From Streptomyces sp. C10-9-1 (GTDB taxonomy: Bacteria; Actinomycetota; Actinomycetes; Streptomycetales; Streptomycetaceae), in NCBI RefSeq assembly GCF_024497955.1, contig NZ_JANHKP010000016.1, positions 1-64,000 on the forward strand: a stretch of 64,000 nt of DNA. The letters run 5' to 3'. Positions 5,041 to 45,285 of this stretch are shown here, in pieces. A program made the translations under genes and the position numbers. The number at the start of each line of letters is the position of its first letter. Positions within the stretch are counted from its first letter, which is position 1. The notes beneath the pieces are model-generated. The model was not told where the DNA came from. It searched no databases and saw nothing but the letters and a program-made list of their open reading frames with translations.

Positions 5041-5054
5041 GTTTCACGTGAAAC
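5041..5054. other. parS, ParB-binding centromere site
   Basis: GTTTCACGTGAAAC is an exact match to the 14-bp palindrome bound by Streptomyces ParB. It lies in the 640-bp non-coding stretch 4833-5474, between an acetyltransferase and a flavohaemoprotein gene. Streptomyces parS sites cluster within a few hundred kb of oriC, which fits the core gene content here. Apart from parS and the presumed promoter of the next gene, I see nothing else in this stretch. Confidence 0.92.
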
Positions 5055-8396: not shown

Positions 8397-8535
8397 GCCA
8401 TGACCTCCCGATCCGGCGATGCTCTCGAACCCGGCCAACTATAAATATGTCGATAGGGCGCTGTCGCTAGGGTGATTGGACACTGACGCTGAGTCAATTA
8501 GCCTTGTCCGCACGGTTCTTCGCAGGGGGAACCGG

Positions 8536-8572
8536 AACGGTCCGAGCCACGAGGGGGGAGGCTCGGACCGTT
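8536..8572 (-). terminator. Rho-independent-type hairpin after the PLP-dependent lyase gene
   Basis: A perfect 13-bp stem (8536-8548 pairing with 8560-8572) with an 11-nt loop lies 17 bp past the stop codon of the lyase gene and before the LysR promoter region. There is no U tract, as is usual in streptomycetes. Confidence 0.75.
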
Positions 8573-8588
8573 CGCCGGGGGGCCGGGG

Positions 8589-24890: not shown

Positions 24891-27800
24891 ATGTTTCACG
24901 TGAAACCGATCGATCCGCGTCTGCTGCACTACGCCCGCGCCACCCGCCTCTTCCTGGCGGCGGTGGTCGCGCTCGGCCTGGCCGGGGCCGCGCTCGTCGT
25001 CGCCCAGGCGATGCTCATCGCCGAGATCGTCGTCGGCGGCTTCCAGCAGGACCTGGCGGTGGCGGAGCTGGCGACGCCGCTGCTGCTGCTCGGGGCCGTC
25101 GCGGTGGGCCGGGCCGTCGTCTCCTGGCTCACCGAGCTGGCTGCGCACCGGGCCAGCGCCGCGGTCAAGTCGGAGCTGCGCGGTCGGCTGCTGGACCATG
25201 CCTCGGGGCTGGGTCCCGGTTGGCTGAGCGGGCAGCGCAGCGGCTCCCTCGCCGCCCTGGCCACCCGCGGGATCGACGCCCTGGACGACTACTTCGCGCG
25301 CTATCTGCCGCAGTTGGGCCTCGCGGTCGTGGTCCCGGTGGCGGTCCTGGCGCGGATCGTCACCGAGGACTGGGTCTCCGCGGCGATCATCGTCGGCACC
25401 CTGCCGTTGATCCCTCTCTTCATGGTGCTCATCGGCTGGGTGACGCAGGCCCGGATGGACCGGCAGTGGGGCCTGCTGTCGCGGCTCTCGGGGCACTTCC
25501 TCGACGTGGTGGCGGGCCTGCCCACGCTCAAGGTGTTCGGCCGGGCGAAGGCGCAGGCGGAGTCGATCCGGGAGATCACCTCCGAGTACCGCCGGGCGAC
25601 GATGCGCACCCTGCGCATCGCCTTCCTCTCCTCCTTCGCCCTGGAACTGCTCTCCACCCTCTCGGTGGCCCTGGTGGCCGTGACCATCGGCATGCGCCTG
25701 GTCCACGGCGACCTGGACCTCTACACCGGTCTGGTGATCCTCGTCCTGGCGCCCGAGGCGTATCTGCCGCTGCGGGCGGTCGGCGCCCAGTACCACGCGG
25801 CGGCGGAGGGACTCTCGGCCGCCGAGGAAGTCTTCGAGGTGCTGGAGACCGGGCAGCGGCCCCCCGGCACCGCGGCCGTCCCCGAGGTGCTCCGCCTGGA
25901 GATCGAGGAGGTCTCCGTCCACCACGAGGGCCGGCGCGGGGCGGCGCCGGAGCGCGCCTCGCTGGTGGTCGAGCCGGGTGAGACGGTGGCCCTGGTCGGG
26001 GAGAGCGGCAGCGGGAAGTCCACCCTGCTGAACGTCCTGCTGGGCTTCACGGAGCCGACGAGCGGAACAGTGCGGGTGGGCGGTGCCGACCTCCGGGAGA
26101 TCGACACCGAGGAGTGGTGGCAGCAGGTCGCCTGGGTCCCCCAGCGCCCCTACCTCTTCGCCGGGACGATCGCCGACAACGTGCGCCTGGCCCGTCCCGG
26201 GGCCGATGACGCGGCGGTGCGCGAGGCGCTGCGGGACGCGGGCGCGCAGGAGTTCGTCGATGCCCTCCCCCACGGCGCCCGGACGCCGCTGGGTGAGGAC
26301 GGGGCCGGCCTCTCCGCAGGGCAGCGCCAACGGCTCGCGCTCGCCCGGGCGTTCCTCGCCGACCGTCCGGTGCTGCTTCTGGACGAGCCGACCGCCGCCC
26401 TGGACGGTGAGACCGAGACGGCCGTCGTCGAGGCGGTCGGGCGTCTCGCCCGGGGCCGCACGGTGCTGCTGGTCGTCCACCGCCCCGCCCTGCTGTCCGT
26501 CGCCGACCGGGTGGTCTCCCTCGCCTCCGCCTCCGTCGAGGAGACCCCGGACGCCGTTCCCTCGGCCGAGGCTGCCGGCGGTCGCCGCGAGCGTCCCGCG
26601 CCCGGCCCCGGCGAGGTGCGGACCGGTGACCCGACGGAGTCCCGCCCCGGCGGCGGTGCCCCGGATACCGGGCGCTCCCGGGGAGGCCCGGTCCTGGCCC
26701 GGGTGCGGGCGGCCGCGGGCGGCCTCCACGGCAGGCTGCTGCTGGCGCTGCTGCTCGGCACCCTGGCCCTGGCCTCGGCGGTCGGCCTGATGGCCGTGTC
26801 CGGATGGCTGATCTCCCGCGCCTCCGAGCAGCCCCCTGTGCTCCATCTGATGATCGCGGTCACCGCCACCCGCGCCTTCGGCATCGGGCGCGCCGTGTTC
26901 CGCTACGCGGAGCGGGTCGTCGCGCACGATGCCGTGTTGCGGATGCTCGCCGAGACGCGGGTGGCCGTCTACCGGGGGCTGGAGGCCATCGCCCCCGCCG
27001 GGCTGGGTGGACGGCGGCGGGGAGACCTGCTCTCGCGACTGGTCGCGGACGTGGACGGCCTCCAGGACTACTGGCTGCGCTGGCTGCTCCCCGCGGGAGC
27101 GGCCGCCCTGGTCGGCGCCGGGACCGTCGGGTTCACCGGCTGGCTGCTTCCCGAGGCGGGCGCCGTGCTGGCCGTCGGCCTGCTGGTGGCGGGCGTGGCG
27201 GTCCCGCTGCTGAGCGGCGCCGTCGCGCGGCGCGCCGAGCGGCAGCTGGCCCCGGCCCGCGGCCGCCTCACCGACACGGTGGTCGACCTGCTGCGCGGTG
27301 CCGCGGAGTCCACCGTGGCCGGGGCACGCGCCCGCAAGCTCGCCGCCGTGCGGGAGGCGGACGGCCGGCTCACCCGGATCGCCGCCCGGGGCGCGGCCGC
27401 CACGGCGCTGGGCGGCGGGCTGTCCGCGCTGGTCTGCGGGCTGACCGTGCTGGGCGCCGCGGCCGTCGGGCTCCGGGCGGTGCAGGAGGGCCGGCTCTCG
27501 GGCGTGGCGCTCGCCGTCGTCGTGCTGACCCCGCTCGCCGCCTTCGAGGCGGTCGCCGGTCTGCCGCTCGCCGTGCAGTACCGCAAGCGGGTGGAGCGCA
27601 GCGCGGAGCGTGTGTACGAGGTCCTCGACGCCCCCGTCCCCGTGCGGGAGCCCTCGTCCCCCGCCGAGCCGCCCGCCACGCCCTTCCCGCTGGTACTGCG
27701 CGGAGTCGGGGCACGGTATGGGACGGATGCGCCCCGGGCGCTGTGCGACGTCGACCTCACGCTCACCCCCGGCCGTCGCGTCGCGGTGGTGGGCACCTCC

Positions 27801-34372: not shown

Positions 34373-34454
34373 GCCGACAGGATGCCCGGTCGGCCGACGG
34401 CTCCGCCATCAAAAATCGCAGCCCACAAGAGGTTTGATCCACAGTCAATGAGGG

Positions 34455-34534
34455 TTGTCCACAGGGTTCTTGGGTTGCCTGTGGACAACCGCCCTCTACT
34501 TTGCGCCCGATTGGCCAACATCATCTGTGGACAA
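34455..34534. other. DnaA-box cluster (three consensus boxes)
   Basis: TTGTCCACA at 34455-34463 (plus), and its complement TGTGGACAA at 34480-34488 and 34526-34534 (minus), match the Streptomyces DnaA-box consensus exactly. The first two sit in a 12-bp perfect inverted repeat (34454-34465 with 34478-34489). Weaker boxes lie at 34435 and 34555. The third box is inside the 3' end of the MerR gene. Clusters outside oriC in Streptomyces are known to titrate DnaA. Confidence 0.75.
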
Positions 34535-41655: not shown

Positions 41656-42468
41656 TCAGCCGGTGAGCAGCTCCTCCAGCACCACCGCGATGCCGTCGTC
41701 GTCGTTCGACGCGGTGACCCGGTGCGCCACGGCCTTGAGGGTGTCGTGCGCGTTGGCCATCGCGACCCCGTGCGCGGCCCAGCCGAACATCGGGATGTCG
41801 TTGGGCATGTCGCCGAAGGCGATGGTGTCCGCCGCGCGGAGGCCGAGGCGGCGGGCGGCGAGCGAGAGCCCCGTGGCCTTGCTCAGCCCGAGCGGCAGGA
41901 TCTCCACCGTGCCGGGGCCGGCCATGACGATGTCCACCAGGCTCCCCACCGTCGCCCGGGCGGCCTCCGTGAGTTCGTCGTCCCCGAGCGTGGGGTGCTG
42001 GATGTAGAGCTTGTTGAGCGGGGCCGCCCACAGCTCGGAGGGCTCCCGCAGCGGCACGTAGGGCAGCGGCCCCTCCTGGGCCCGGTAGCCCTCGCCGATC
42101 AGGACGTCCCCGTCCAGCCCGTCGCGGCCGGCGGCCAGCAGCAGGGGGCCGACCTCGGCCTCGATCTTGGCCAGGGCGAGCCCTGCCAGCTGGCGGTCGA
42201 GCGTCACGGAGGTCAGCAGGCGGTGCTCGCCCGCGTGGTACACCTGCGCGCCCTGGCCGCAGACCGCGAGGCCCCGGTAGCCGAGGTCGTCCAGGATGTG
42301 GCGTGTCCAGGGCACCGCGCGGCCGGTGACGACGATGTGTGCCGCGCCCGCCGCGGTGGCCGCGGCGAGCGCCTCGCGGGTGCGCTGCGAGACGGTGTCG
42401 TCGCCCCGCAGCAGGGTGCCGTCGAGGTCGGTGGCGACGAGCCGGTAGGGGAAGCTGCCGCTGCTCAC
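41656..42468 (-). CDS. HAD superfamily (Cof-type) hydrolase, translationally coupled to serS
   Basis: The 270-residue protein has the HAD motifs [21 protein letters not shown], a Lys in LGLSKATG and [14 protein letters not shown], plus a C2 cap as in the Cof family. It is a paralogue of the hydrolase at 31844-32704 (the shared GDMPNDI block is identical). GTG 42468 overlaps the serS stop by four bases, so it is expressed with seryl-tRNA synthetase. The substrate is unknown. Confidence 0.88.
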
Positions 42469-43742
42469 CGGGAGATCGGCTCCAGCACCTCGCGGCCGCC
42501 GAGGTAGGGGCGCAGCACCTCCGGCACCCGCACGGACCCGTCGGCCTGCTGGTGGTTCTCCAGGATCGCCACGATGGTGCGCGGGACGGCGCACAGGGTG
42601 CCGTTGAGCGTGGCCAGCGGCTGGACCTTCCGGCCCTCGCGCATGCGGACGGAGAGGCGGCGGGCCTGGAAGCTGTCGCAGTTCGAGGCGGAGGTCAGCT
42701 CGCGGTACCTGCCCTGGGTGGGGATCCACGCCTCGCAGTCGTACTTGCGGGAGGCGGACGCCCCGAGGTCGCCGGTGGCGACGTCGATCACCTGGAAGGG
42801 CAGCTCCAGGGAGGTGAGCCACTGCTTCTCCCACTCCAGCAGCCGCTTGTGCTCGGCCTCGGCCTCCTCGGGGGCGACGTAGGAGAACATCTCCACCTTG
42901 TCGAACTGGTGGACGCGGAAGATGCCCCGGGTGTCCTTGCCGTAGGTGCCGGCCTCGCGGCGGTAGCAGGGCGAGAAGCCCGCGTAGCGCAGCGGGAGCG
43001 CGTCCGCGTCGAGGATCTCGTCCATGTGGTAGGCGGCGAGCGGGACCTCGGAGGTGCCGACGAGGTAGTAGTCGTCCTTCTCCAGGTGGTACACGTTCTC
43101 CGCGGCCTGGCCGAGGAAGCCGGTGCCCTCCATGGCGCGCGGGCGGACCAGCGCCGGGGTCAGCATCGGGGTGAAGCCGGCCTCGGTGGCCTGGGCGATC
43201 GACGCGTTGACGAGGGCGAGCTCCAGCAGGGCGCCCACGCCGGTCAGGTAGTAGAAGCGCGAGCCGGAGACCTTCGCGCCGCGTTCGACGTCGATGGCGC
43301 CGAGGGCCTCGCCGAGCTCCAGGTGGTCCCTGGGCTCGAAGCCCTCCGCTCCGAAGTCGCGGACGGTGCCGTGCGTCTCCAGGACGACGAAGTCCTCCTC
43401 GCCGCCGACCGGGACGTCCTCGTGGACCAGGTTGCCCAGCCGGAGCAGGAGGCGGCGGGTCTCGTCGTCCGCCTCGTTCTGCGCTGCCTCGGCGGCCTTC
43501 ACGTCGCTCTTGAGCTGCTCCGCCTTGCCGAGCAGCTCGGCGCGCTCCTCGGGGGAGGCCTTGGGGATCAGCTTGCCGAGCGACTTCTGCTCGGCACGCA
43601 GCTCGTCGAAGCGGACGCCGGAGGACCGCCGCCGCTCGTCGGCGAGGAGCAGGGCGTCGACGAGGTCGACGTCCTCTCCACGGGCGCGCTGGGACGCGCG
43701 GACTCGGTCGGGGTCCTCACGGAGCAGGCGAAGGTCAATCAC
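42465..43742 (-). CDS. serS: Seryl-tRNA synthetase
   Basis: The 425-residue class II synthetase charges tRNA-Ser. The N-terminal region (about residues 1-110, with [20 protein letters not shown] and [20 protein letters not shown]) forms the long antiparallel coiled-coil arm that grips the tRNA-Ser variable arm. Motif 2 is [20 protein letters not shown], and motif 3 lies in the [17 protein letters not shown] to [12 protein letters not shown] stretch. Length is normal for SerRS. The start is GTG 43742. It is followed by a coupled HAD hydrolase gene, and its upstream region carries a DnaA-box cluster. Confidence 0.97.
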
Positions 43743-43937
43743 CCCACCAGGCTACCGGTGCCGACTCGGGCCCCCGCACCGGATATTGCCGTGCGTGTCG
43801 TTATGTCCTTATTGATCCCCTTGATAAAAAGCCGCGGGGAAAACCGGCCGGCGAATGGCACGCTGCCGCGCCCCGGGAAGGCGGCGCCGGGGGCGGTCGG
43901 GCCGCCCCCGGCGCCCTCCGCCCGGATGGCGGGCGCG

Positions 43938-44259
43938 CTGTCCACAGGAATGGCAAGGGCGGCACAGGTTATCCACAGGCTGTGTGAAGACCCTGTGGAT
44001 TCTGGAATTGATCATTCCGAAGCTGTCGGGATTGCCATCGGATTCGCGGTTCAAACCCCATTCGCCCACTCATTCGGGTGGGAGATTCTCCCCTTGCGGG
44101 GGTGATCGGTGGAATTGGGCCGACGGGGGCGCCCCGCACCCCCGGGGCGCCCCAGGCGCCGAAGGCGGTCCACCGAGCCGATTTGTCGACCCTCCGACGG
44201 TTCACTGTCGACTTGTCCCCAGGTCGAGAAGCGAGCCTGTGGATAAGTTCTGTGGACAA
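43938..44259. other. DnaA-box cluster in the serS-pheA spacer
   Basis: Exact boxes lie at 43969-43977 (TTATCCACA, plus), 44238-44246 (TGTGGATAA, minus) and 44251-44259 (TGTGGACAA, minus). One-mismatch boxes lie at 43938-43946 and 44213-44221. They occupy the 601-bp non-coding spacer 43743-44343, which also has an AT-rich stretch (43801-43830) unusual in this DNA. The spacer must also contain the serS promoter. No gene is supported inside it. Confidence 0.75.
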
Positions 44260-44343: not shown

Positions 44344-45285
44344 TCAGTCCTCCGCGCGGCCGTCCTGGCAGCGTGCCAGCCAGTCCGACGCGGCCGTGAA
44401 CTCCGCGTCCGAGGTCCCGGCGCGCAGCGGCCGCACATCCTGCCGGGCCACCCCCGCCCGCGGGTACGACCCGAGGAAGCGCACCTTCGGGCAGATCCGC
44501 TTCAGCCCCATCAGCGCCTCGCCCACCCGCCGGTCCGCGATGTGCCCCTCCGCGTCCACGGCGAAGCAGTAGTTGCCGATGCCCGCGCCCGTGGGCCGGG
44601 ACTGGATCAGCATCAGGTTGACCCCGCGCACGGCGAACTCCTGCAGCAGCTCCAGCAGCGCGCCGGGATGGTCGTCGCCCAGCCAGATCACCACGGAGGT
44701 CTTGTCCGCCCCGGTGGGCGCCGACGGCCGGGCCGGGCGCCCCACGAGCACGAAGCGGGTCTCCGCGTTGTCCGCGTCGTGGATCTGGGTGACCAGCGGC
44801 TCCAGGCCGTAGGTGGCCGCCGCGAACTCGCCCGCGAACGCCGCGTCGTAGCGGCCCTCCTGCACCAGCCGGGCGCCGTCCGCGTTGGACGCCGCCGACT
44901 CCCACAGCGCGTCCGGCAGATGGCCGCGCAGCCAGTTGCGCACCTGGGGCTGGGCGACCGGGTGGCCCGTGACGGTCTTGATCTGCGACAGCTCGGTGCC
45001 CGGACGCACCAGCAGCGCGAACGCGATCGGCAGCAGCACCTCGCGGTAGATCATCAGGGGTTCGCCGGCGGCCAGCTCGTCCAGGGTGGCCGTCACCCCG
45101 CCCTCCACCGAGTTCTCGATGGGCACCAGCGCGGCCGCGGCCTCGCCCGCACGGACGGCGTCCAGGGCCGCCGGCACGGACAGCATGGGGACGAGTTCGC
45201 GCGTGGCGGCCTCGGGAAGCGTGCGCAGGGCAGCCTCGGTGAAGGTCCCCTCGGGGCCCAGGTACGTGAAGCGCGTGGCGGACAT
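44344..45285 (-). CDS. pheA: Prephenate dehydratase
   Basis: The 313-residue enzyme converts prephenate to phenylpyruvate in phenylalanine biosynthesis. It has a catalytic domain (about residues 1-185), opening with FTYLGPEGTFTEAAL and containing LVPIENSVEGGV and ETRFVLVGR (the conserved Thr-Arg-Phe). A C-terminal ACT domain (about 200-280) has ELLQEFAVRGVNLMLIQSRP, the site for feedback control by phenylalanine. There is no chorismate mutase domain. The ATG at 45285 lies directly before the first strand. The gene stands alone between the DnaA-box spacer and the copper operon. Confidence 0.96.
   Translation of the reverse strand: MSATRFTYLGPEGTFTEAALRTLPEAATRELVPMLSVPAALDAVRAGEAAAALVPIENSVEGGVTATLDELAAGEPLMIYREVLLPIAFALLVRPGTELSQIKTVTGHPVAQPQVRNWLRGHLPDALWESAASNADGARLVQEGRYDAAFAGEFAAATYGLEPLVTQIHDADNAETRFVLVGRPARPSAPTGADKTSVVIWLGDDHPGALLELLQEFAVRGVNLMLIQSRPTGAGIGNYCFAVDAEGHIADRRVGEALMGLKRICPKVRFLGSYPRAGVARQDVRPLRAGTSDAEFTAASDWLARCQDGRAED

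Follow-up and report, generated by a model that had tools for sequence, protein, structure and literature searches.

The DNA considered here, called the window throughout, is a stretch of 64,000 nucleotides from Streptomyces sp. C10-9-1. It belongs to a contig of 181,670 bases (C16) in a genome of 6.43 Mb. The subject of this account is an array of DnaA boxes located in the spacer between the genes serS and pheA. The serS gene (42465–43742, minus strand) encodes a serine--tRNA ligase, as assigned by the NCBIfam equivalog TIGR00414 (445 bits, above the cut-off). The pheA gene (44344–45285, minus strand) encodes a prephenate dehydratase (NCBIfam NF008865, 296 bits, above the cut-off). The spacer that separates the start of serS (43742) from the end of pheA (44344) is 601 bp long and lies upstream of serS.

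Three exact boxes and two with one mismatch are found within 322 bp of this spacer, as an initial annotation of the window had claimed. Such a density is not expected by chance. In the whole window TTGTCCACA is matched 15 times with at most one mismatch (3.94 on average in shuffled sequence), and TTATCCACA is matched 9 times (0.91 on average); neither count was reached in any of 100 shuffles. The exact pattern TTRTCCACA occurs 37 times in the whole genome and its reversed control 5 times, so that three exact boxes in 601 bp are far above background.

The array consists of two convergent box pairs, here called modules I and II, with about 25 bp within each pair and about 235 bp between the pairs (all box distances are given from start to start). 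Module I is formed by the exact box B2, TTATCCACA (43969–43977, plus strand), and the weak box B3, GAATCCACA (43994–44002, minus strand). It is preceded by the near box B1, CTGTCCACA (43938–43946, plus strand). Module II is formed by the near box B5, TTGTCCCCA (44213–44221, plus strand), and the exact box B6, TTATCCACA (44238–44246, minus strand). The box-like word B4, TTGTCGACC (44183–44191, plus strand), lies 30 bp before B5, and a third exact box, B7, TTGTCCACA (44251–44259, minus strand), lies 13 bp after B6. Between the modules is a central block (44052–44104), whose copy in the window is free of DnaA boxes.

The two-module array is present in the serS-pheA spacer of 153 out of 154 genomes of the same genus. 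In the single exception, B5 and B6 are 35 bp apart instead of 25. Most of the set comes from a draw made by SerS protein, independently of the spacer DNA, which gave 147 genomes of the order, 132 of them from the same genus. Spacers were read in 128 of these 132 (all except G064, G094, G165 and G181), and 127 of the 128 carry both modules. A further 28 genomes were chosen by DNA similarity, two of which also occur in the SerS draw; one duplicate (L016) was dropped. The finder required the TCCACA core of B3, offsets of 24–26 bp for B2-B3 and 23–26 bp for B5-B6, and a module spacing of 120–400 bp, with everything else counted as a miss. It scanned up to 400 bp beyond the computed end of pheA.

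Other searches gave a similar picture. Of 61 genomes searched at the DNA level (relatives and the genome itself), 47 gave matches, and many of the best ones fall on the box array. In all 30 loci returned by this search the array lies between serS and pheA, with single boxes missing in some. Likewise, 77 of 80 named loci pass the finder, including one Streptomyces violaceoruber strain. Of the three that fail (L205, L241 and L190), L205 has B2 and B5 255 bp apart without a standard B3. In Streptomyces sp. JJ36 (L241, the same genome as L173) the two boxes of module II are 35 bp apart rather than 25, which makes the module about one helical turn longer. The third is discussed below. Conservation in close relatives had been proposed in the initial annotation as a check on its claim, and the part of this check that was run did not refute it.

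Conservation is also seen in the individual boxes of the 153 genomes. B2 is TTATCCACA in 139 genomes, B5 is TTGTCCCCA in 125, and B6 is TTATCCACA in 146. Information per base is 1.97 bits in B6, 1.92 in B2 and 1.80 in B5, with a mean of 0.75 over the middle region (44022–44180). B3 follows B2 by 25 bp in 150 genomes and by 24 bp in 3, and B6 follows B5 by 25 bp in 138, 24 bp in 11 and 23 bp in 4. A box with at most one mismatch is found 29–32 bp before B2 in 142 genomes (30–31 bp in most) and 12 or 13 bp after B6 in 110, and a box-like word stands 30 bp before B5 in 105.

The central block has many columns at 90% identity or more across the same genomes. Its consensus is AAACC..C.C.C.TTCG.GTGG..TC.C..AAAG..TT, from which the window copy departs toward its end. 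A search for the block elsewhere in 12 genomes used a pattern one base too long, which a true copy could match only with two mismatches. The copy near serS came up in 9 of the 12, and there were 46 other matches, against 30 for a reversed control.

The array was not met in the other families of the order. In all 15 genomes from the other two families of the order, no box with at most one mismatch was found upstream of serS in the stretch scanned, which covered at most 1200 bp (to pheA in L103) and was shorter where contigs end soon, as several do. In 14 of these 15, pheA was not found next to serS on the upstream side. A near-match search against phages gave no match.

Two simple explanations of the array can be set aside. 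Chance or drift is rejected, because the letters, strands and offsets of the boxes are retained in genomes whose spacers otherwise differ. A coding function is rejected because many length changes in the spacer are not multiples of three; the open reading frames listed there are mechanical. The retained position and geometry across the genus suggest a built-in brake on replication rather than chance sites.

The spacing between the modules provides further evidence. Among the 153 genomes, B2 and B5 stand 232–238 bp apart in 107, 243–246 bp in 21 and 253–256 bp in 12, and no genome has a distance of 239–242 or 247–252 bp. Single genomes have 223, 230 and 231 bp. A second draw of 392 genomes of the genus, partly overlapping the first set, used a pattern limited to spacings of 237–267 bp. 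It returned 65 rows, two of which were left out, since by eye their first matched box was B1. The remaining 63 spacings, calculated by hand, are 242–246 bp (41), 252–257 bp (18), 259 bp (1), 263 bp (2) and 265 bp (1).

Changes in this spacing were placed by parsimony on a quick tree built from parts of serS and pheA. There are 62 changes, of which 34 are of 1–3 bp. Among the 27 changes of 4–50 bp (one of 66 bp falls outside this range), 23 are in phase at a period of 10.0 bp (binomial p 0.00016) and 22 at 10.3 or 10.5 bp (p 0.00076). A jitter test of the module interval at 10.5 bp gave p 0.0006. Inserts near 10 or 20 bp are spread over several positions between the modules, which speaks against a single old insertion inherited by descent. 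Steps of about 10 bp prevail among the larger length changes, which suggests a looped DnaA complex.

Several observations weigh against this reading. Nine spacings of 265–283 bp scatter in phase, one spacing is 169 bp, and among the 77 named loci one has 248 bp and another 263 bp. A period of 10.0 bp suits the steps better than one of 10.5 bp, and a period of 11.0 bp leaves only 18 of the 27 changes in phase (p 0.06). The flanking intervals, taken as controls, are not free of signal. The interval from B6 to pheA (125 changes) has a weak phase signal (jitter p 0.015), and that from serS to B2 (102 changes) has steps nearer 11 bp (jitter at 10.5 bp p 0.007); neither signal is needed by a loop model. 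The excess of in-phase changes over the B6-pheA interval has p 0.0014, 0.03, 0.07 and 0.34 at periods of 10.0, 10.3, 10.5 and 11.0 bp. Because of these controls and this comparison, helical phasing of the modules is supported but not proved. In 2 of the 153 genomes the second module runs past the computed end of pheA. Finally, in Streptomyces sp. H27-H5 (L190) the modules are about 1750 bp apart through an insert of about 1.5 kb, so the geometry can be lost. The insert is a natural disruption of the two-module array. Its reading frame resembles, by eye, that of an ISL3-type transposase.

A further point is the place of the array near dnaA. In all 38 genomes selected for long contigs, the distance between dnaA and serS is 78–133 kb, with a median of 84 kb. 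In the present genome dnaA lies on another contig, C2, at about 37.5 kb, and the distances in the 38 genomes suggest that the two contigs, C2 and C16, probably face each other with their left ends. The open frame of dnaA has 657 codons, a near match to the 656 residues of S. coelicolor DnaA, which is described as having a long domain II (PMC5448010). Next to dnaA is an array of near boxes only, with no exact DnaA box (C2:38869–39431), which is taken as oriC from its place after the gene.

Clusters of at least two exact boxes within 500 bp occur at only five places in the genome: C2:3142–3230, C2:60235–60436, C2:88910–88958, C16:34455–34534 and C16:43969–44259. All five are confined to the contig that carries dnaA and the contig of the window. 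As a separate observation, exact boxes are present in these outlying clusters and absent from the oriC-like array. The richest cluster, C2:60235–60436, which is about 21 kb away from the oriC-like array, has four exact boxes. The offset in its convergent pair is 33 bp; in other Streptomyces genomes, pairs similar to it by eye show offsets of 29, 33 and 35 bp.

The fourth of these clusters is the other one in the window (34435–34534). It consists of TGATCCACA on the plus strand, TTGTCCACA on the plus strand 20 bp further on, TTGTCCACA on the minus strand after another 25 bp, and then another minus box. Its distance from the spacer cluster is 9.4 kb; the initial annotation gave 9.5 kb. A close box pair outside the spacer was found in 47 of 65 loci of at most 20 kb; this survey excluded boxes within 1200 bp upstream of serS, and 47 may be too low since loci may end early. 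Among the convergent pairs, 38 have an offset of exactly 25 bp and 4 of 26 bp. The full arrangement, TGATCCACA, TTRTCCACA after 20 bp and TTGTCCACA on the minus strand after 25 bp, recurs in many relatives about 8–11 kb from serS. Around this cluster, Pfam families were obtained for 3 of 10 open reading frames, and of 8 proteins compared with NCBIfam only those of serS and pheA were named.

Convergent pairs are not limited to the genus. A pair with the 25-bp offset is also found at several sites in a genus of another family of the class (g38, offsets 25 and 23 bp). Other genera of the class have offsets of 10–12, 14–16 and 19–20 bp and more, and 25 bp is therefore no general rule. In g54, a genus of another family of the class, convergent pairs with an offset of 19–20 bp are repeated, at two places in one genome (G549) and at six in another (G563).

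The AT-rich stretch at 43801–43830, which the initial annotation had noted in the same spacer, is real (30% GC) but belongs with serS. In the mean of the 153 genomes there is a dip in GC 40–100 bp upstream of serS. Since this dip lies near serS while the distance from serS to B2 ranges from 120 to 524 bp, the stretch goes with the gene and not with the boxes, and is not judged part of the element. A role for it as an unwinding element is unsupported on the same grounds. As a further observation on this interval (43743–43976 in the window), its steps near 11 bp perhaps reflect phasing with a serS promoter.

Most likely the array regulates initiation negatively in a datA-like way, as an element of the type that a 2006 study reported for S. 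coelicolor. A probability of about 0.6 is given to the proposal that the spacer is a putative DnaA-binding element which restrains initiation through two modules bridged into a loop. The replication-control zone near oriC suggested by the initial annotation is retained here as the best reading; it is now carried by the conserved order, strand and spacing of the boxes and the median of 84 kb from dnaA, and its arguments from AT-richness and, as explained below, from parS sites are dropped.

In this proposal, DnaA would occupy two similar modules cooperatively. The unit of each module would be a pair of convergent boxes about 25 bp apart, usually with a box or box-like word on the same strand some 30 bp upstream, and in module II often with an extra minus box 12–13 bp downstream. 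With about 235 bp between them, the modules would share one face of the helix, and DnaA bound to both could draw them into a loop, perhaps with the help of a protein bound to the conserved block in the middle. At the oriC of S. coelicolor, DnaA complexes on either side of a spacer are described as joining into a hairpin (PMC5448010); a bridge of this sort would suit two modules separated by about 235 bp on one helix face.

With its place about 84 kb from dnaA and oriC, the element would be copied early in each round of replication, soon after initiation. The doubled element may take up DnaA or help to inactivate it, lowering the amount of free or active DnaA just after initiation. Re-initiation would thereby be prevented when required. 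A more far-reaching version holds that the element is a looped machine for inactivating DnaA, a Streptomyces counterpart of datA with phased modules around the site of an architectural protein, which would switch DnaA off beyond mere titration. This version is rather doubtful.

Another model, possible though unlikely, is passive titration. The boxes would merely soak up DnaA, and their geometry would be irrelevant beyond cooperative pairs. The genome has few exact boxes (37), none of them in the array beside dnaA, so that clusters of exact boxes could be strong sinks. The abstract of the 2006 S. coelicolor study is said to report that one cluster, D78, has a higher affinity for DnaA than oriC and that extra copies slow growth. 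Titration, however, predicts neither the narrow spacing of the modules, nor the steps of about 10 bp, nor a conserved block free of boxes.

It is improbable that the array is instead an upstream regulatory region through which DnaA controls transcription of serS (or pheA). The array always adjoins serS in the same-genus genomes that were read, and the steps near 11 bp between serS and B2 also speak for such a region. But that distance varies from 120 to 524 bp while the spacing within the array is narrow, and the 25-bp pair is found again in a second cluster, 9.4 kb away.

Ordered box arrays with sites for accessory proteins are also known from DARS and from oriC. A DARS-like element that activates DnaA by regenerating its ATP-bound form, or a dormant secondary origin, could share this layout and the GC content of the spacers, which is lower than that of their surroundings. 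Either is very improbable here: the AT-rich stretch tracks serS and no such tract was seen tied to the boxes, and the published S. coelicolor cluster is said to repress initiation.

An RNA element (a leader or small RNA) that only resembles DnaA boxes is hardly credible. In its favour, convergent boxes are inverted repeats that can fold, conservation extends to the middle block, and on either strand the consensus folds better than its column-shuffled controls; these controls are weak, since any inverted repeat is lost on shuffling. Against it, consensus folding of 25 sequences has similar strength on the two strands (−26.9 and −24.6), as for inverted repeats in DNA, no Rfam family reaches its gathering score in the spacer (one match is far below the cut-off, E 0.87), and the first three letters of B3 vary (29 forms) while B2 is constant in 139 of 153 genomes, so that pairing is not kept.

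Two other features of the window can be mentioned. Two exact 14-mers of parS lie at 5041–5054 and 24893–24906, with 0.03 sites expected by chance at up to two mismatches. These are the two sites within 40 kb that the initial annotation had counted toward replication control. They are real, but near the oriC of Streptomyces such sites are common, so they add nothing specific to that reading. A match to the Streptomyces small RNA Scr3920 in Rfam is found at 8452–8576 (118 bits).

The ordered geometry, kept across the genus, makes the choice between a passive sink and an active brake a simple question to test. The central conserved block may likewise serve as bait for a possible co-factor of DnaA in this group. 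According to a 2017 review, no protein partner of S. coelicolor DnaA was known (PMC5448010).

Among known systems, the nearest are the DnaA-box clusters of S. coelicolor outside oriC, one or more of which are stated to repress untimely initiation (PMC5742627, PMC4585315, PMC10950094). The serS-pheA array resembles them in grouping several exact boxes outside oriC (three exact and two near in 322 bp) and in its place near oriC (78–133 kb from dnaA in all 38 genomes). The study of Smulczyk-Krawczyszyn et al. in 2006 (J Bacteriol 188:6184), to which all three papers refer, reportedly named three clusters, H69, H24 and D78, from cosmids, and is said to have found a high affinity of D78 for DnaA, with initiation raised by deletion of D78 and lowered by extra copies. 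Going by gene numbers, both clusters of the window could fall in the D78 cosmid, so the serS-pheA spacer is at most a candidate for D78. This kind of element is already known in print. No description of a phased two-module layout that has a central block and is kept throughout the genus turned up in the literature searched, outside which most subscription papers lie.

Clusters outside oriC are also said to repress untimely initiation in Bacillus subtilis, as cited in the same papers (PMC5742627, PMC4585315, PMC10950094). They differ in belonging to another phylum. Okumura et al. 2012 is reportedly a study of these clusters.

The Streptomyces oriC itself has 19 boxes and lies between dnaA and dnaN. 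Like the spacer array, it has DnaA boxes in two groups, and its complexes are described as joining into a hairpin (PMC5448010). The spacer array differs in lying between serS and pheA, on another contig than dnaA and not beside it, and the array that does lie beside dnaA here has near boxes only.

Finally, the array can be compared with datA of E. coli. The likeness is one of layout, and no sequence relation was looked for; the present element differs in sitting between serS and pheA. Both are non-coding clusters of boxes away from oriC whose position is conserved among relatives (here in 153 of 154 genomes). In datA, which promotes hydrolysis of the ATP bound to DnaA, the boxes surround a middle site for IHF, and here a conserved block free of boxes lies between the two modules.
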